Shown here in pieces: positions 4,704 through 21,892 of a stretch of 21,892 bases of DNA. Location: IMG/VR virus record IMGVR_UViG_3300002132_000088, positions 1-21,892 of that record. One strand, given 5' to 3'. The notes under the pieces are model-generated. The model saw only the letters and a list, made by a program, of their open reading frames with translations, was not told the origin of the DNA and searched no databases. Positions within the stretch are counted from its first letter, which is position 1. Every line of letters begins with the position of its first letter. The DNA comes from a virus. Both the position numbers and the translations under genes were made by a program.

Positions 4704-4864
4704 AGCTTGACTCCAAAGGGTAATTTAGGAGTCTTGCCCAACATTAATTCATGGTAAGCCCATTGCCAATCGCGACCGTACTCGGCACGAGCAAGACGCA
4801 TAATGTCCTGCTCATACTTAGTTTCATACCCGCAAATTCTTGCAAGAATGTCGAATAGTTTCAT
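4700..4864 (-). CDS. 54-residue protein of the minus-strand small-gene cluster
   Basis: Starts at ATG 4864, overlapping the DUF1127 stop as ATGA, and ends in another ATGA at 4700-4703. The product begins MKLFDILARICGYETKYEQD, continues with a charged helical middle holding several Trp/Tyr, and ends in a Pro/Lys-rich tail. No membrane segment. The chain of start/stop overlaps on both sides strongly suggests coupled translation and a real gene. I do not recognise a family; the mid region resembles short helical host-factor mimics but that is only an impression. Confidence 0.65.
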   Translation of the reverse strand: MKLFDILARICGYETKYEQDIMRLARAEYGRDWQWAYHELMLGKTPKLPFGVKL

Positions 4865-5067
4865 GGATGCACCTCAAACAAATGATGTTTGTTTTTAAAG
4901 CTAGCCTTTGAATCAGCATATCGTTGAGTCTCTATAGCAACACGAGGAATATCTCCACGGTGCAGTCCGATGTCATTGAGTTCTTTATCGGATAAACTAC
5001 TTAGTTCTCTGAAGGTTCTGTTATAAACTGAAACAGTAGTTAAGAACTTAAAAAACTTTTTAAGCAT
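4861..5067 (-). CDS. DUF1127-domain small protein
   Basis: 68 residues. The central NRTFRELSSLSDKELNDIGL plus the following HRGDIPRVA match the DUF1127 (YjiS-like) motif: an Arg-rich helix, then L-S-D-x-E-L-x-D-I-G and an R-x-D-I pair. These small basic proteins are abundant in Alphaproteobacteria, and some have been linked to RNA turnover and phosphate or carbon metabolism. The start codon overlaps the upstream gene by 8 bases and its stop overlaps the next start as ATGA. In a phage it is likely acquired from, or mimics, a host regulator. Copies are usually about 45-75 residues, so this one is intact. Confidence 0.85.
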   Translation of the reverse strand: MLKKFFKFLTTVSVYNRTFRELSSLSDKELNDIGLHRGDIPRVAIETQRYADSKASFKNKHHLFEVHP

Positions 5068-14720: not shown

Positions 14721-17057
14721 ATGAGCATCACTGTTATAAAAAGAAGTGGGGATAAAGAACCACTAGCTGTTGAGAAATGGCAAGCCCAGGTAGCTAAAGT
14801 TTGCAAAGGAATTGCAGACGTTAGTCAATCAATGATCGAGATCAAAGCACAGCCGCACTTTTATGACGGTATCACTACAGAAGAAATTGACGGCATTACA
14901 TTAAGAGCTATTGTTGACTTAATTGATTTTGAACATAATCCAGATATCGGACATGTAAACTATCAATATGTAGCAGGGAAGCAGCGCCTGTCAATGTTGA
15001 GAAAAGATGTGTACGGCCAATACGAGGTTCCCCACCTATACGATATCGTAAAGAAAAACGTTTCAGTTGGACTGTATACACAAGAACTACTTGAGTGGTA
15101 TACTGAAGAAGACTGGAACAAGATGAATGATATGCTGGATCATGAGAAAGACGAGCAATACGGTTATGCATCTATCGAACAGTTAATTGAAAAATATTTG
15201 GTACGCAATCGTGCAACGAAAGAAATTTATGAAACTCCACAGATTAGATACATGGTTGCCGCAGCTACAGTCTTTCATAAGGAAGAGCCTAATTCAGCTA
15301 GAATGCGCTACATCAAAGAATATTACAATGCGGCAAGCGATGGTTTGTTTACTCTTGCTACACCTGTGTTGGCTGGCCTTGGCACTCCTACTAAACAGTT
15401 TAGCAGTTGTGTTCTTATCCGTAGTGACGACAACCTGGATAGCATATTTGCTTCTGGGGAGATGATGGCCAAGTATGCTAGCAAACGTGCTGGCATTGGT
15501 TTAGAGATTGGACGGCTACGTTCATTAGGTAGTCCCATCAGAGGCGGTGAGATCATGCATACTGGTATGATCCCATTCCTTAAGAAATGGTTTGGTGATT
15601 TGCGTTCATGTTCACAAGGTGGAATTCGTAATGCTAGTGCTACAGTGTTTTATCCTATTTGGCATCATCAGTTTGATGATCTTATTGTGCTTAAAAATAA
15701 TCAAGGCACTGAAGAAACTCGAGTCCGACATATGGATTACGGAGTGGTTCTTTCTGCCTTCTTCTGGAGACGGTTTAAAAACAAAGAACAAATAACGTTC
15801 TTTGACCCTAACGAAGTACCTGACTTGTATGAAGCGTTCTATAAAGATACACCTTTGTTTGAAGAACTATATGTCAAGTACGAAAAGCGCAAAGACTTAC
15901 GTAAAAAGTCTATGAGTGCTGAAGAAGTGTTCAAGAGTGGTATTCTGAAGGAACGCACAGACACAGGTCGAATATATCTAGTATTCATTGATAATGTAAT
16001 GAAACAAGGTCCATTTGATCCTGAATATCATGCGATTTATCAGAGCAACTTGTGCTGTGAGATCCTATTACCCACACGTCCGTTCAAGAGATTAGATGAC
16101 GATAGTGGCCGCATAGCGTTATGTACACTGGGATCTATTAACTGGGGTTCGTTCCGGAACCCAGAGGATATGCGTAGAGCTTGCAGAATTCTACAGCGTA
16201 GCCTGAATAACATTCTTGACTATCAAGACTTTTTGTCTATTCAAAGTAAACTAAGTAATGACGAAATCCGCCCATTAGGGATTGGCGTCACTAATCTTGC
16301 ATACTGGCACGCCAAGCGTAGCTTTAAGTATGGCGAGAAGGATGCATTACAAGATGTTAAAACTTGGATGGAGCACCAAGCGTTTTACTTAACAGAAGCA
16401 TCCGTTGAGTTGGCAAAAGAACGTGGTGCATGTTTAGACAGTGCAAACACTAGATACGGCCAAGGTGTGTTTCCTTGGGAACTACGTGCTAACGGAGTTA
16501 ACGAACTTGCAGACTTTACTCCTGAGCTTGACTGGGAAACCCTCCGTATAGAAATGAAACAGCACGGTGTTCGTAATGCTACATTAATGGCCATTGCTCC
16601 TGTTGAATCTAGCAGTGTTGTGATTAATTCAACTAACGGCATCGAAATGCCAATGAGTTTGATCAGCACTAAAGAATCAAAAGCAGGATCGTTCACTCAG
16701 GTTGTTCCAGAGTATAACAAGTTAAAGAACAAGTATCAGCTAATGTGGGAGCAAACAGACTGTGAATCTTATATTAAGACAGCAGCAGTTCTAGCTGCAT
16801 ATGTTGATCAAAGTATCAGCACTAACACATTCTACAATCCAGCACACTTTCCTGAGCGTAAGATTCCGACTACATTAATCGCTAAGAATTTAATGCAGGC
16901 ACACATGTGGGGATTGAAAACTTTCTACTACAGCTTGATTAACAAAGCAGGTAGTAAACAACAGGCAGAGTTAACACCCGAAGTACACTATAACGGCTTC
17001 TACGAACGTGAATCTGAACCTGAATTTGAAGATGACTGTGAGGCATGCAAACTATGA
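14721..17057 (+). CDS. nrdA: Class Ia ribonucleotide reductase, large subunit
   Basis: 778 residues. It reduces ribonucleoside diphosphates to deoxy forms in the cytoplasm with NrdB. An ATP-cone domain (about 1-100) suggests allosteric activity control. Active-site residues are present: C230 (FSSC), the radical cysteine block NLCCEI (N443, C445, E447) with an extra cysteine C446, C468 in IALCTLGSINWG, the radical-transfer pair Y736-Y737 in FYYSL, and a C-terminal redox pair C773 and C776 (CEAC), shorter than the spacing in E. coli. AGAGAAG precedes ATG 14721. Its stop overlaps iscU as ATGA. Confidence 0.97.
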   Translation: MSITVIKRSGDKEPLAVEKWQAQVAKVCKGIADVSQSMIEIKAQPHFYDGITTEEIDGITLRAIVDLIDFEHNPDIGHVNYQYVAGKQRLSMLRKDVYGQYEVPHLYDIVKKNVSVGLYTQELLEWYTEEDWNKMNDMLDHEKDEQYGYASIEQLIEKYLVRNRATKEIYETPQIRYMVAAATVFHKEEPNSARMRYIKEYYNAASDGLFTLATPVLAGLGTPTKQFSSCVLIRSDDNLDSIFASGEMMAKYASKRAGIGLEIGRLRSLGSPIRGGEIMHTGMIPFLKKWFGDLRSCSQGGIRNASATVFYPIWHHQFDDLIVLKNNQGTEETRVRHMDYGVVLSAFFWRRFKNKEQITFFDPNEVPDLYEAFYKDTPLFEELYVKYEKRKDLRKKSMSAEEVFKSGILKERTDTGRIYLVFIDNVMKQGPFDPEYHAIYQSNLCCEILLPTRPFKRLDDDSGRIALCTLGSINWGSFRNPEDMRRACRILQRSLNNILDYQDFLSIQSKLSNDEIRPLGIGVTNLAYWHAKRSFKYGEKDALQDVKTWMEHQAFYLTEASVELAKERGACLDSANTRYGQGVFPWELRANGVNELADFTPELDWETLRIEMKQHGVRNATLMAIAPVESSSVVINSTNGIEMPMSLISTKESKAGSFTQVVPEYNKLKNKYQLMWEQTDCESYIKTAAVLAAYVDQSISTNTFYNPAHFPERKIPTTLIAKNLMQAHMWGLKTFYYSLINKAGSKQQAELTPEVHYNGFYERESEPEFEDDCEACKL

Positions 17058-17443
17058 GCTACTCGGATAAAGTAATCGAACACTATGAAAATCCAAGAAA
17101 TGTTGGTACCCTAGACAAGAATGATGCTAATGTAGGGACAGGCATGGTTGGGGCGCCGGCCTGCGGTGACGTGATGAAACTACAAATCAAAGTAATAGAC
17201 GGTATCATCACTGATGCTCGTTTTAAAACCTATGGTTGCGGTAGTGCGATTGCCAGCAGCAGCTTGATCACTGAAATGGTCAAAGGCATGAGTCTTGAAC
17301 AAGCAGGTGCAATAAAGAACAGTGAACTAGCCGAAGAGCTATCACTGCCTCCTGTTAAGATACACTGTAGTATTCTTGCCGAAGACGCTATCAAGGCAGC
17401 AGTGGCAGATTATCGATCTAAGCATGATAACACTAACGCCTAA
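17054..17443 (+). CDS. iscU: IscU-type Fe-S cluster scaffold
   Basis: 129 residues. The three cluster-binding cysteines sit at C37 (APACGDVMK, with D39), C62 (YGCGSAIASSS) and C105 (KIHCSILAEDAIKAA), nearly the E. coli numbering. LPPVK (99-103), the HscA chaperone recognition motif, is intact. It accepts sulfur from IscS and iron, and hands [2Fe-2S] clusters to apoproteins. The start is ATG 17054, overlapping the nrdA stop; an upstream in-frame ATG at 17045 would add three residues. No iscS, hscA or hscB is nearby, so it must use host partners. Its end overlaps iscA by 20 bases. Confidence 0.92.
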   Translation: MSYSDKVIEHYENPRNVGTLDKNDANVGTGMVGAPACGDVMKLQIKVIDGIITDARFKTYGCGSAIASSSLITEMVKGMSLEQAGAIKNSELAEELSLPPVKIHCSILAEDAIKAAVADYRSKHDNTNA

Positions 17444-17744
17444 GGCCGCTGGCAAAATAAAAACTCATCTAGATAACCGCGGCTCGGGTATTGGCATTAG
17501 AGTTGGAGTGAGGACTACAGGGTGTTCTGGCATGGCATATGTATTAGAATTTGCAGATTCTACATCATCAACTGATGAAGTCTTCACTCTAGAAGGCATA
17601 CAGATTGTAGCTGATAAGAAAGATTTAATATACCTCCAAGGCATGACTATTGATTATCAACGTAATGGACTAAATGAAGGTTTTGAGTTTGTCAATCCAA
17701 ATGAACGTGACCGATGTGGTTGCGGAGAAAGTTTTAGAGTATAA
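17424..17744 (+). CDS. iscA: A-type Fe-S carrier (IscA/ErpA/HesB family)
   Basis: 106 residues, normal length. The family cysteines are present: C34 in TTGCSGMAY and the C-terminal C98-x-C100 in DRCGCGESF. These bind iron or clusters and deliver them to target apoproteins. The start, ATG 17424, opens MITLTPKAAGKIK, the usual family beginning; the frame extends upstream only inside iscU. It overlaps iscU by 20 bases, so nrdA, iscU and iscA form one translationally coupled set. Whether it is IscA, ErpA or SufA in detail cannot be decided. Confidence 0.92.
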   Translation: MITLTPKAAGKIKTHLDNRGSGIGIRVGVRTTGCSGMAYVLEFADSTSSTDEVFTLEGIQIVADKKDLIYLQGMTIDYQRNGLNEGFEFVNPNERDRCGCGESFRV

Positions 17745-17749
17745 TAACA

Positions 17750-17757
17750 ACTAAATA
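17750..17757 (+). promoter_or_regulatory. Late promoter octamer ACTAAATA for nrdB
   Basis: ACTAAATA ends 27 bases before ATG 17785, spaced as at nrdA and the 9891 gene. It can restart transcription between iscA and nrdB. Confidence 0.65.
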
Positions 17758-17784
17758 ATAGCAGAAATAATAAAGAGAAAATAA

Positions 17785-18885
17785 ATGAGTAAAGAACAAT
17801 ATAACCTGTCTAAGAAAACAGACTATCTTAATCGTAAGATGTTTCTAGACCCTGCTGGTCCTGTGACTATCCAACGATTCGAAGAAGTAAAATATAATAA
17901 ACTTGCAGACTTTGAAAAAACTGCACGTGGTTTCTTTTGGGTGCCTGAAGAAGTTAGCTTAACCAAAGACGCACAGGATTTTAAAAATTCAAGTGATGCT
18001 GTTAAGCATATCTTTACCAGCAACCTGCTAAGACAAACAGCACTAGACAGTTTGCAAGGCCGAGCGCCTGCACAAGTGTTTACTCCAGTGTGTTCTTTGC
18101 CGGAACTAGAAGCAGTGTTATATAACTGGAGCTTCTTCGAAACTAATATTCACAGTCGCAGCTACAGTCATATCATCCGCAACATTTATAATGTACCTAA
18201 GGATGTGTTTAACACTATCCACGATACACAAGAGATTGTTGACATGGCTAGTTCTATCGGAAACTACTACGAAAAGCTACACATTATAAACATGAAGAAA
18301 GAGCTCGGTCATAAAATCGACGAGCAAGATCATATTAATGCTATCTATCTTGCACTACACGCAAGCTACGGTCTAGAAGCATTCCGCTTCATGGTATCGT
18401 TTGCTACTAGCCTTGCTATGGTTGAGAACAAGATCTATATTGGCAATGGCAATATTATTAGTTTGATTTTGCAAGACGAATTACTGCACAAAGGCTGGAC
18501 AGCGTACATTATTAATCAAGTAATTAAAGAAGATCCACGTTTCGCCAAAGCTGCTCAAGACTGCTACGCTGAAGTTGTACAGATTTACAAAGACGTTATT
18601 CAAGAAGAAAAGGAATGGGCAGACTTCCTATTCAAGAAAGGGCCGGTGATTGGACTTAACGCCGCCATTCTCAAAGAATTCGTTGATCATACAGCAGCAA
18701 GTGCATTGAAAGACATTGGTATTAAATACTGGGCGCCTGCTCCGAAGAATTCTCCAATTCCTTGGTTTAACAAACACAGCGATACTAGCAAGAAACAAAC
18801 AGCATTACAAGAAAGCGAATCAACCAATTATGTTATTGGTGTGATGGGAGAAAATCTTGACTATGATGCGCTACCGGCTATATAA
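17785..18885 (+). CDS. nrdB: Class Ia ribonucleotide reductase, small subunit
   Basis: 366 residues. It carries the metal-tyrosyl cofactor for NrdA. Landmarks align with E. coli NrdB: D88 (ALDSLQGR), E119 and H123 (ETNIHSRSY), radical Y127, E198 (LEAFRF), E232 and H235 (QDELLH), and the Trp in FFWVPEE. One residue is inserted between E119 and H123, giving E-x-x-x-H where most class Ia proteins have E-x-x-H; D88 to E119 spacing is normal, so the insertion is local. The C-terminal Tyr used for radical transfer lies in NYVIG, and the tail is acidic-hydrophobic. AAGAGAAAA precedes the ATG. Confidence 0.97.
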   Translation: MSKEQYNLSKKTDYLNRKMFLDPAGPVTIQRFEEVKYNKLADFEKTARGFFWVPEEVSLTKDAQDFKNSSDAVKHIFTSNLLRQTALDSLQGRAPAQVFTPVCSLPELEAVLYNWSFFETNIHSRSYSHIIRNIYNVPKDVFNTIHDTQEIVDMASSIGNYYEKLHIINMKKELGHKIDEQDHINAIYLALHASYGLEAFRFMVSFATSLAMVENKIYIGNGNIISLILQDELLHKGWTAYIINQVIKEDPRFAKAAQDCYAEVVQIYKDVIQEEKEWADFLFKKGPVIGLNAAILKEFVDHTAASALKDIGIKYWAPAPKNSPIPWFNKHSDTSKKQTALQESESTNYVIGVMGENLDYDALPAI

Positions 18886-18893
18886 TAAAGATT

Positions 18894-19061
18894 ATGTATA
18901 AAGCACAATACAAACGCAACAACCCCTACGAAGCATGGACTGTGATCGGACATTACGGCAATGAAGCCGCGGCTATTACTGCCGCACTTAGTTATAAAAA
19001 CAAAGGTGTAATTATGGTTAGAGTCACTGATAAAAAGGGTGGGGTTGTTTTCTCAAGTTAA
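18894..19061 (+). CDS. Small protein, 55 aa, between nrdB and glutaredoxin
   Basis: The frame from ATG 18894 to TAA 19059-19061 fills the gap between nrdB and grx almost exactly, starting 8 bases after the nrdB stop. The product begins MYKAQYKRNNPYEAWTVIG, has an Ala-rich helix (NEAAAITAALSYKNKG) and a strand pair ending in VVFSS. The beta-alpha-beta feel and gap-filling position favour a real gene, although the AAAG at 18887 is a weak ribosome binding site. No family recognised. Confidence 0.65.
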   Translation: MYKAQYKRNNPYEAWTVIGHYGNEAAAITAALSYKNKGVIMVRVTDKKGGVVFSS

Positions 19062-19071
19062 AGGAAACAAA

Positions 19072-19323
19072 ATGATCGAAATTTACGGCAAACCTTCTTG
19101 CCCCTACTGCGAAAAAGCCAAAGCACTATGTGAAGTCCGTGGCTTTAAGTATAGCTACAAATCAATGGGCACAGACTTTACCAAAGAACAATTACTAGAA
19201 TCATTTCCAAATGCTCGCACAGTTCCACAGATTAAAATAAACGGTGCAAGCATTGGTGGTTATGACCAATTAGTAAGATATGTAGAAGACACAGGGTACA
19301 CTGGAACAGGACACACACTATAA
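19072..19323 (+). CDS. grx: Glutaredoxin
   Basis: 83 residues. Thioredoxin-fold markers: the active site CPYC (C10, C13) after MIEIYGKPS, TVPQI with the cis-Pro, and GGYDQL for glutathione binding. It can reduce the NrdA C-terminal cysteines with glutathione, which fits its place beside nrdAB as in T4. Start ATG 19072 follows AAAGGAAAC; an in-frame upstream extension to 19039 is not credible. Its stop overlaps the next start (TAATG). A monothiol-type role in Fe-S handling with IscU/IscA is less likely, since the site is dithiol CPYC. Confidence 0.93.
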   Translation: MIEIYGKPSCPYCEKAKALCEVRGFKYSYKSMGTDFTKEQLLESFPNARTVPQIKINGASIGGYDQLVRYVEDTGYTGTGHTL

Positions 19324-19610
19324 TGTTAATCGAACTACCATACAAAGTTGGAGACAATGTCTCTTTTAAATTAAGCTCGGGCGAGGAAATTATTGCTCGC
19401 CTTGAAGCAGAAACAGATAAAAATTATACGCTGCACAAACCTATGGTTTTAATCGCAGGCAAAGAAGGTCTTGGATTAGCACCGTTTATGTTTAGCGTAG
19501 CACCAGACGGTAAGTTTGTATTGCAAGCACAGTCAGTGAGTTGCGTTGCTAAAACTGAAGAACAGATTAGCAAACAGTATACTTCACAGACTTCTGGAAT
19601 TTTGTTATAA
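19323..19610 (+). CDS. Sm/LSM-like small beta-barrel protein
   Basis: 95 residues. The opening VGDNVSFKLSSGEEIIARLEAE (read as strand-turn-strand) looks like the Sm1 motif of Sm/Hfq-type proteins: a glycine-bounded strand pair with an acidic end. The rest continues as short strands (YTLHKPMVLI, LGLAPFMFSV, FVLQAQSV), consistent with a five-strand barrel. Such proteins bind RNA or form rings; here the function is not known. It starts on the grx stop codon and ends one base before the PAAR gene, so it is part of a run of coupled genes. Confidence 0.65.
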   Translation: MLIELPYKVGDNVSFKLSSGEEIIARLEAETDKNYTLHKPMVLIAGKEGLGLAPFMFSVAPDGKFVLQAQSVSCVAKTEEQISKQYTSQTSGILL

Positions 19611-19611
19611 C

Positions 19612-20751
19612 ATGCCAAAGCAGGTTCATCGGCAAGGAGATTCTAGGTTATGTGGTGCTACTACAACTGTAGTAGGCCAAAACACAGTCTATGTAGAAAA
19701 TCAACTTGTTGCTGTAGAAGGTGATACTAATACACACGAAGGTGGTGCCTTTAATACACCTGCTGGGTTCAATGAAGTTTATGTAAACAATAAACCGATA
19801 ATTAGAATAGAAGATCCTGCAGGAGCAGATACGTTTCATCCGTCACCGCCTACAGACGCTACTAGCTCAGGAGCCTCTACAGTATATGCTGGCTTCCCTA
19901 TTGAACGCAATGTTGGAACAGCTGAAACACCTGTGGTAGCATTTGAGCTAGAAACACAGCCTGCAGGAGAAGCTCCAGTCGGAGCAGTTGCAGAGGAAAT
20001 AGCATCAGCTACACAGATGAGTAATAATACTCCAGGCGGCGGCGCAATTGCTCCTAGAGTGGATGGCGGTCCGTTTACTGATTCTGGAAATACTGCAGGT
20101 GCCAGTAGTAGTTTTGTTCCGGGACCTCCTGGAGATTGTACACGACCTGAACTAGGTAAAGTCAGCGAACGCTACGAGTCTAATGGAGATTCAGCAGCCA
20201 TTGGTAATGACAGCACAGGTGGATATAGTTATGGTACATATCAAATCGCTACTAAGACAGGCACATTTGCAAACTGGATGAGTTATCTACAAGCTCTATA
20301 TCCGGCAATATATACTGTCCTAAGTGACGCAGGTGGCACTTCCGCAGCAACCGCAGGAACAGACTCATTTAAAGCAGCGTTCAAAGGATTAAAATCAAAT
20401 CCTGATTTTGTAAAATGTCAGCACGATTTTATCCAAGCTACTCACTACGATAAGTTAGTAGCAAAGATTAAAGCTGCAACAGGATTAGATGTATGTGATG
20501 GTTCGCACTCAAATGGGTTGCAAGATGCTGTTTGGAGTATCAGTGTACAACATGGACCAGGTAGTAAAATACCAGAGCGGGCTTGGGCAGGACTTGGTGA
20601 TCTAACAGCAGTAAGCGAAACAGCTCTAATAAATGCTCTTTACGATGAAAGACAACCATCGAAATATTTTGGCAAATCGACTGCCGCAGTGCAGGCTTCT
20701 GTAGGAAGACGTTTCTCTACAGAAAGAACAGATTGCCTAGCAAGTGTTTAA
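19612..20751 (+). CDS. PAAR tail-tip protein fused to a lysozyme-like domain
   Basis: 379 residues. Residues 1-95 form a PAAR domain, the sharp tip of contractile tails, with likely metal ligands H6, C14, H42 and H76. A Gly/Thr/Pro linker follows (about 96-180). The C-terminal domain (about 180-379), with VSERYESNGD, GYSYGTYQIATKTG and WSISVQHGPGS, resembles the VgrG/phage-tail muramidase domain and would cut peptidoglycan. In T4 the tip (gp5.4) and lysozyme (gp5) are separate proteins. The start is ATG 19612; an upstream extension in the same frame lies inside the previous gene. One base separates it from that gene. Confidence 0.85.
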   Translation: MPKQVHRQGDSRLCGATTTVVGQNTVYVENQLVAVEGDTNTHEGGAFNTPAGFNEVYVNNKPIIRIEDPAGADTFHPSPPTDATSSGASTVYAGFPIERNVGTAETPVVAFELETQPAGEAPVGAVAEEIASATQMSNNTPGGGAIAPRVDGGPFTDSGNTAGASSSFVPGPPGDCTRPELGKVSERYESNGDSAAIGNDSTGGYSYGTYQIATKTGTFANWMSYLQALYPAIYTVLSDAGGTSAATAGTDSFKAAFKGLKSNPDFVKCQHDFIQATHYDKLVAKIKAATGLDVCDGSHSNGLQDAVWSISVQHGPGSKIPERAWAGLGDLTAVSETALINALYDERQPSKYFGKSTAAVQASVGRRFSTERTDCLASV

Positions 20752-20765
20752 TAGAAAGGAACACC

Positions 20766-21185
20766 GTGAATCAAATTAAAAAATACTTATGGATGGGACT
20801 GGGTTTCATAAGTTTAGGAATGGCTTATATCGGAGTTATTACTCCAGGATTGCCTTATAGTATATTTGTAGTGTTTGCTGCCTACTGCTTTAGCAAGGGC
20901 AACGAACGTATGCACAACTGGATCATGAACCACAAGTTGTTTGGCCCATTTTTGCGAAACTGGGGAGAGCGTAGAGTGTTCCCAACTAAAATGAAATTCT
21001 TTATGGTGTTTATGATGAGCACTAGTTTATGCATTATGTTATTCACTGGAGTTAAACCGATTGGTATTATTAGTACTGCTATTTTTATGGCTTGTGTGGC
21101 TGTATGGGCTTGGAGATTTCCAGGGTCAGTTGAAGAACACCAGAGAAGAAAAACCAATAACAAGAGGATCGGATGGCTAAAATAA
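20766..21185 (+). CDS. DUF454 (YbaN-like) inner membrane protein
   Basis: 139 residues from GTG 20766, which has GAAAGGAAC upstream; the ATG at 20733 in frame would sit inside the PAAR gene and lacks a site. Membrane segments near residues 8-30 and 75-115 flank a basic loop (HNWIMNHKLFGPFLRNWGER), the family hallmark that includes GLPYSIFV and a Trp-rich end. YbaN-type proteins are small host inner-membrane proteins of unknown role. In a phage this may alter the envelope or lysis timing; that is inference. Its end overlaps the next gene by 13 bases. Confidence 0.8.
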   Translation: MNQIKKYLWMGLGFISLGMAYIGVITPGLPYSIFVVFAAYCFSKGNERMHNWIMNHKLFGPFLRNWGERRVFPTKMKFFMVFMMSTSLCIMLFTGVKPIGIISTAIFMACVAVWAWRFPGSVEEHQRRKTNNKRIGWLK

Positions 21186-21424
21186 GTTTAGAACAATTAA
21201 TAGATCTTGCATTTGCAAATGAAGAAGGTGACCCGATTGACTGGGGTGTCTTTCAAAGCGGCAAAGAAGAAGCAATGAAAATGATTGGTACAAGCATACT
21301 AGATATGTTTAATAAAGAAACATGGACTGACGAACACAAGTTTATTGCCATGGCAACTATCACAAAGTTAACTGTAGAAAACTTTGTACTACATGCAAGG
21401 TTGATGAAAAACGATGAAGTGTGA
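21173..21424 (+). CDS. Phage protein, 83 aa, function unknown
   Basis: 83 residues, acidic and predicted helical, beginning MAKISLEQLIDLAFANEEGD, with WGVFQSGKEEAMKM and a long C-terminal helix. ATG 21173 overlaps the DUF454 stop by 13 bases and has AAGAGGATCGG as its ribosome binding site. No membrane segment and no family recognised. Together with the next gene it forms a coupled pair at the end of the PAAR operon. Confidence 0.75.
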   Translation: MAKISLEQLIDLAFANEEGDPIDWGVFQSGKEEAMKMIGTSILDMFNKETWTDEHKFIAMATITKLTVENFVLHARLMKNDEV

Positions 21425-21719
21425 ACAAGGCGACCTAGCTAAGATTATATATTCTTTGAATCCCAGCAACATTGGCAAAATTGTTATAGTAGAAAGCTAT
21501 ATTGGAAAGTTTAATCAAAGAGATACATTTTTCTTTAAAGGTATAACTTGTATGTGTCCAGTCACAGATCATTACTGGTGGATAGCCGGCGATGGCTTGA
21601 ATAATAATTTTGGCGATACTCCAAAAGCCTACATTGCTGACACATGGCTAGAACCAATTCGTCCCGATATCCAAAAAATGTCAGTTGATGAAAAAATAGA
21701 TATTGACATAGCAGCATAG
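21414..21719 (+). CDS. Phage protein, 101 aa, function unknown
   Basis: 101 residues, with a strand-rich first half that includes CEQGDLAKIIYSLNPSNIGK, somewhat like a KOW or SH3-type barrel, then CMCPVTDHYWWIAG and a C-terminal acidic stretch. Overlaps the preceding gene by 11 bases. Several cysteines (C3, C46, C48) could bind metal but spacing is not typical of a zinc ribbon. No family recognised. The tmRNA late promoter starts 7 bases past its stop codon. Confidence 0.75.
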   Translation: MKCEQGDLAKIIYSLNPSNIGKIVIVESYIGKFNQRDTFFFKGITCMCPVTDHYWWIAGDGLNNNFGDTPKAYIADTWLEPIRPDIQKMSVDEKIDIDIAA

Positions 21720-21725
21720 TTGTGT

Positions 21726-21733
21726 TATAAATA
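21726..21733 (+). promoter_or_regulatory. Perfect T4 late promoter TATAAATA before the tmRNA gene
   Basis: TATAAATA matches the T4 late consensus exactly and lies immediately upstream of the tmRNA acceptor piece. It is the best octamer match in the window and suggests tmRNA is made late. Confidence 0.75.
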
Positions 21734-21739
21734 TAACTG

Positions 21740-21892
21740 TAATGTTGAAACTTTAGCAACGACGGACAAGACCCCGGGGCGGTACCGGGCGACTCCACCA
21801 AGTATACATTTGCTGAGTGTATAGTTGTTGGGGTCGAAATAGGATAGATTGACGTAAGAGAGAAAGTGGAGTTACCGGGATCTAAGCGCCGT
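21740..21892 (+). ncRNA. ssrA: Circularly permuted two-piece tmRNA, 3' truncated by the window
   Basis: The acceptor piece comes first. A T-arm of five perfect pairs, CCCGG (21773-21777) and CCGGG (21785-21789), with a 7-nt loop GGCGGTA, is followed by CGACTCC (21790-21796), A and CCA (21798-21800). A 29-nt spacer holds a TATACA/TGTATA hairpin (21803-21823). The coding piece then begins with GGGGTCG (21830-21836), which pairs with CGACTCC over seven bases including one G-U, forming the acceptor stem. A D-like GGAT...TTGACG follows. This order, acceptor then coding, is the permuted form typical of Alphaproteobacteria. The 5' end (21740) is approximate and the tag reading frame lies past the window. 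The T-loop departs from the usual TTCRANY. Confidence 0.85.

Follow-up and report, generated by a model that had tools for sequence, protein, structure and literature searches.

The tmRNAs of the Bxz1 group of mycobacteriophages and of Bacillus phage G appear to come from one-piece genes. Like the gene described here, they are encoded by phages (PMC4131195), as is the tRNA-like domain of tmRNA in mycobacteriophage DS6A (PMC4131195, PMC11915505), a fragment without the tag reading frame that full-length relatives of our gene possess. Across all forms, 79 unique phage tmRNAs have been reported (PMC11915505), and 53 two-piece tmRNA structures, 50 of them aquatic, have been found among phage genomes in work that also described the permuted tmRNA of phage Melnitz (PMC9004378). 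Because two-piece phage tmRNAs are already published (PMC9004378, PMC11915505), the RNA itself is of a known type, and the idea that a phage could rescue ribosomes with its own tmRNA and a tag of its choosing, raised in a preliminary description made from the sequence alone, is not new (compare Melnitz, PMC9004378). New in the wider phage set considered here are the composite promoter in front of the gene, its cassette-like exchange and the protein genes in its spacer.

The ssrA gene of Methylophilales phage Melnitz (MZ577097) is a permuted tmRNA gene of alpha type, as ours most likely is, in a T4-like aquatic phage, and it shares with our gene the exact composite promoter TTGACA-N17-TATAAATA. 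It differs in having a PDDEXK gene upstream and a late-transcription coactivator downstream, a glutamine riboswitch at the tmRNA 3′ end and a 142-nt spacer with an unannotated ORF. Alphaproteobacterial tmRNAs (RF01849, RF04321) have the same split order, T-loop GGCGGTA and acceptor stem, and are set apart from our gene by its being encoded by a phage, apparently exchanged between phages and preceded by the composite promoter.

In the window, the whole 21,892-nt stretch of viral DNA analysed here, we found a permuted, two-piece tmRNA gene on the plus strand at 21738-21892, cut by the end of the contig before the tag. It matches both the Rfam model tmRNA_permuted (RF04321; 76.4 bits, E 2.4e-13) and the model alpha_tmRNA (RF01849; 73.8 bits, E 1.1e-18), with scores above the gathering scores and matches clipped solely by the contig end. 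Both models cover the 3′ half, or acceptor piece (21738-21800), which contains the T-arm CCCGG-GGCGGTA-CCGGG (21773-21789) and the acceptor strand CGACTCC (21790-21796), followed by an A (21797) and the CCA end (21798-21800). A 29-nt hairpin spacer without an ORF (21801-21829) leads to the clipped 5′ half (21830-21892), which opens with the other acceptor strand, GGGGTCG (21830-21836). The two strands pair at 7 of 7 positions, with a G.U as the third pair, an alanine identity element in tmRNA and tRNA-Ala. Folding of 21770-21860 produced the T-arm and an acceptor helix that runs on into the spacer hairpin (z = -3.6). The gene thus has an acceptor/T-arm half upstream of a D-arm/coding half, a 7-bp acceptor stem and a CCA, as permuted tmRNAs do. 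This is the layout given in the preliminary description, which is borne out in every stated element by the coordinates, the fold and the two Rfam models, including the alpha-tmRNA covariance model that it had named as a check. Its view that the T-loop is unusual was mistaken, since GGCGGTA is the alpha_tmRNA consensus in the same Rfam alignment. ARAGORN called no tmRNA in the window, because the gene ends before the tag.

The architecture had also been called alphaproteobacterial. The window piece does obtain its best covariance score as alpha type; however, this clipped score alone does not settle the subtype, because a control gene (L203) that scored best as beta in full length (102.2 bits) scored best as alpha (64.9 bits) once cut at the window's end point, and we set aside the assignment based on it. 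Better support comes from the nearest full-length homologue, L329, which is 96.4% identical to the window over 167 nt and is recognised as alpha type at 97.4 bits. Judged by this near-identical relative, the tmRNA of the window is most likely of alpha type, in line with the original proposal.

The gene stands among phage genes. Also encoded in the window are the two ribonucleotide reductase subunits, along with a glutaredoxin, a PAAR-like protein and further phage-type proteins, and the conserved upstream neighbour of the tmRNA, o21414 (21414-21719, plus strand), is a 101-aa phage protein matching phrog_2529. Relatives of o21414 occur in 186 viral stretches. Of 107 o21414 loci, a set that includes some near-duplicates, 80 are followed on the same strand by a tmRNA no more than 2.5 kb away (median distance 278 nt), 4 lack it, and in the other 23 the contig ends first. 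The gene order nrdA-nrdB-grx-o19323-o20733-o21414-tmRNA was found repeatedly, with insertions. Among named phages, o21414 has no relative, and a blastn search with the window tmRNA returned one short stray match only. Between nrdA and nrdB (window 14721-18885) lie genes for IscU-like (17045-17443) and IscA-like (17421-17744) iron-sulphur assembly proteins. Elsewhere in the window, the minus strand encodes a TerC-family membrane protein (312-989) and a DUF1127 protein (4861-5067), both of kinds commonly encoded by bacterial chromosomes. Three relatives have tRNA genes with the anticodon CTA ahead of the tmRNA locus (L243:6972-7047, L256:3442-3518 and L269:6745-6819); ARAGORN labels them tRNA-Pyl, and they are possible amber suppressors.

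Comparison of the tmRNA with its flanking genes revealed discordant ancestries. The 3′ half in the window is identical at 63 of 63 positions to those of L326, L327 and L329, and the 5′ half is 98% identical, yet NrdA and NrdB of these phages are 38-45% identical to the window's; in all, four phages with NrdA and NrdB at 38-45% identity have tmRNA halves that are 97-100% identical. In phages with NrdA and NrdB 75-90% identical to those of the window, by contrast, the tmRNA halves share about 15-70% identity with its own, L199 coming nearest at 62-73%, and the tmRNAs at the same place score mostly best as beta, some as alpha. Strong conservation could account for part of the identity between the tmRNAs, but not for their discordance with the flanking genes. 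Given this discordance, we abandoned the idea that tmRNA type tracks flanking-gene ancestry. From these comparisons, the tmRNA gene behaves as an exchangeable cassette that would have passed between unrelated phages. The wider stretch 14721-21892 is itself a mosaic, in which NrdA, NrdB and o20733 are 75-90% identical to one phage set, and a different set is nearest for glutaredoxin, o19323 and the tmRNA.

Complete tmRNAs of the near-identical set carry the tags ANANYSLAA (L329), ANENFALAA, ANDNYAPEMALAA and ANANHQPAMALAA; tags differ within this set, and therefore that of the window is not predictable. Syntenic tmRNAs carry proteolysis-type tags. The rescue RNA would be exchanged as a unit of which the tag is among the most variable parts. 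Additionally, some relatives have exceptionally long tags of 26-33 residues ending in ALAA or AVAA (L231, L232, L235, L238, L242, L250, L253, L254, L271, L285, L296, L298, L303 and L304, and also L067, L083, L100 and L119). One type has the common core ANADTFDF.AMSFTGNTV..G, and the other is built around FVDFSAPVT/FVDFGALNK.

A tmRNA gene at the end of a contig could be a piece of host DNA, either joined by misassembly or left as an ssrA remnant by a prophage that integrated there, and ssrA is a common integration site. Such an origin is contradicted by dozens of independent contigs in which a complete tmRNA stands in the same gene order, by the gene's own promoter, and by the window's 23-nt T-arm/acceptor string, which had no exact match in 84,980 bacterial and archaeal genomes and in this, too, sets the gene apart from alphaproteobacterial tmRNAs; we hold it to be extremely improbable. 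Because gene order and tmRNA recur across the o21414 loci, a join to bacterial DNA is very unlikely, and this synteny answers the worry over misassembly that accompanied the claim of a tmRNA within a phage genome. The truncation could alternatively mean that the window copy, which ends before any tag, is a decoy of the DS6A type, in which the tRNA-like domain alone ties up SmpB or AlaRS and so inhibits trans-translation in the host. Phage tmRNA without a tag is known, and a molecule of this kind inhibited tmRNA (PMC4131195, PMC11915505), yet the contig end explains the truncation here, and near-identical L329 has a complete 9-aa tag. Moreover, the last 19 nt of the window are present in 27 other viral contigs, all within permuted tmRNAs, which continue to the tag region wherever the DNA continues. 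A decoy is accordingly improbable, and we read the gene as a tmRNA clipped by the contig end. When used to look for the missing 3′ end of the same phage, this 19-mer led to those 27 other phages, with no overlap. Twelve o21414 loci likewise stop 150 nt or less from the tmRNA match, which suggests that near-identical sequence common to diverged phages may form a natural assembly break point.

The preliminary description placed the gene behind a perfect late promoter. The T4-type late-promoter octamer TATAAATA is indeed present on the plus strand at 21726-21733, but it doubles as the -10 box of a composite promoter (21703-21733), with a sigma-70-type -35 box, TTGACA, on the same strand at 21703-21708, overlapping the 3′ end of o21414 at an exact spacing of 17 bp, so that the label of a late promoter is incomplete. 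The octamer sits in a 6-bp inverted repeat, GTTATA-AA-TATAAC (21724-21737). It was found once in the window against 1.6 expected, which is not above chance, and since this count is uninformative alone, a comparison across relatives was needed. After clustering of phage tmRNA loci at 85% identity, 52 of 113 clusters had the octamer at a distance of 55-95 nt upstream of the CCA end, where its frequency in the rest of these loci would predict 0.39. TTGACA, scored with at least 5 of 6 letters, lay exactly 17 bp before the octamer in 35 of those 52 clusters, whereas of 75 octamers at other places 4 were preceded by it (Fisher p = 3e-14). Twelve long phage records (1.77 Mb) contain the exact composite three times, each time as a tmRNA promoter, that of Melnitz among them; other bipartite promoters in these records mostly have TATAAT-type -10 boxes. 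None of the 16 clusters in the o20733-derived set (L229-L308) has the octamer; in several, TTAAATA stands there instead, and in others we could recognise no promoter.

Genes for gp55-like late sigma factors (E about 1e-25) are present in the two largest near relatives, of 364 kb and 280 kb. The octamer thus recurs among phages of which some have a factor of the kind that would read it, yet a -35 box is also present. This combination points to a promoter usable early by the host sigma-70 and late by a phage factor; some phages would then have their ribosome-rescue RNA controlled by a promoter fit for the early as well as the late phase of transcription. Sigma-70 alone could use it too, and it may be a strong early promoter only, with TATAAATA as a -10 variant without late use, as the optimal 17-bp spacing of TTGACA and the description of the Melnitz promoter as early by its authors (PMC9004378) would allow. 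From such a promoter, however, one would expect TATAAT, and what marks the tmRNA is instead the exact late octamer together with a perfect -35 box, in phages whose near relatives encode gp55-like factors. We therefore consider early use alone possible but somewhat doubtful, and favour use of the composite promoter in both phases.

Overall, the window very probably derives from a T4-like, probably large-genome aquatic phage with its own alanine-type permuted tmRNA, carried under the composite promoter as an exchangeable cassette and presumably serving ribosome rescue. A single transcript would start just after the promoter (about 21738), made early by host sigma-70 RNA polymerase on TTGACA-N17-TATAAA and late through a gp55-like late sigma factor on TATAAATA. 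Host RNases would excise the spacer to give an acceptor piece and a coding piece joined by the 7-bp acceptor stem, and host AlaRS and SmpB would load the molecule. We infer a need for host SmpB because none of 15 tmRNA-bearing phage records contained an SmpB, in a search that was positive in 10 of 14 known genomes used as control. By analogy with the tmRNA family, the loaded tmRNA would free ribosomes that have stalled on cleaved messages, adding a degradation tag of LAA type. In the genome, the cassette would keep to much the same site, downstream of the cluster of nrdAB and the glutaredoxin gene. An isolated, clipped tmRNA has in this way become a testable case.

Many relatives have a longer spacer between the tmRNA halves, and in it an ORF equipped with a Shine-Dalgarno site of its own. 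We compared 24 distinct spacers 90 nt or more in length; in 14, an ORF of this kind takes up 70% or more of the spacer, and for none of these did more than 2 of 100 randomised controls do as well. A scan for the series CCA, TAAGGA and ATG, in this order, returned at least 119 viral stretches, at least 71 of them at permuted tmRNAs; among the viral matches listed, 66 have a measured spacer, of 74-373 nt. The same scan in bacteria and archaea gave none at a permuted tmRNA among the 119 matches listed. Examples of such loci are L138:6377-6562, L163:2287-2478, L505, L508, L560, where the nested gene is a thioredoxin gene, and L563, with about 60 others. The nested genes encode a thioredoxin (Pfam E 4e-21), DUF2061 (3.5e-20) and PGDYG (3.4e-6) proteins and several short membrane peptides. 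Within nine families, every pair but one gave a dN/dS of 0.02-0.26, the exception having three differences only, and by this measure the nested genes are under purifying selection. Random controls, dN/dS and domain matches together rule out chance ORFs.

We folded five examples, and in each of them four or all five of the Shine-Dalgarno bases (AAGGA) pair within a helix that extends the acceptor stem; in this predicted structure, folding of the precursor would hide the nested gene's Shine-Dalgarno site. We found no mention of genes nested in tmRNA spacers in the open-access literature searched. A split structural RNA with protein genes in its spacer would, if true, be an unusual gene arrangement, and since it appears to be present in cultured phage Melnitz it is directly checkable: the unannotated spacer ORF there (L323:6097-6261, 54 aa) reads into the 5′ half. 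It also carries a warning, as assemblies break within phage tmRNA genes and annotation overlooks the nested ones.

The permuted tmRNA of aquatic phages is probably a mobile cassette whose spacer acts as a landing site for protein genes, with a transcript that would be both pre-tmRNA and mRNA and whose folding or processing could switch translation of the nested gene. The window, with its 29-nt spacer, would represent the short, empty form. Homologues of nested genes also stand outside spacers, namely QZI94817.1 just upstream of the Melnitz tmRNA (L323:5781-5981) and a free-standing homologue of another nested family in L155, which argues that these are ordinary small phage genes that entered the spacer. 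L555, which shares its acceptor strand with the window and its tag with L329 and also has the composite promoter, does have a nested gene.
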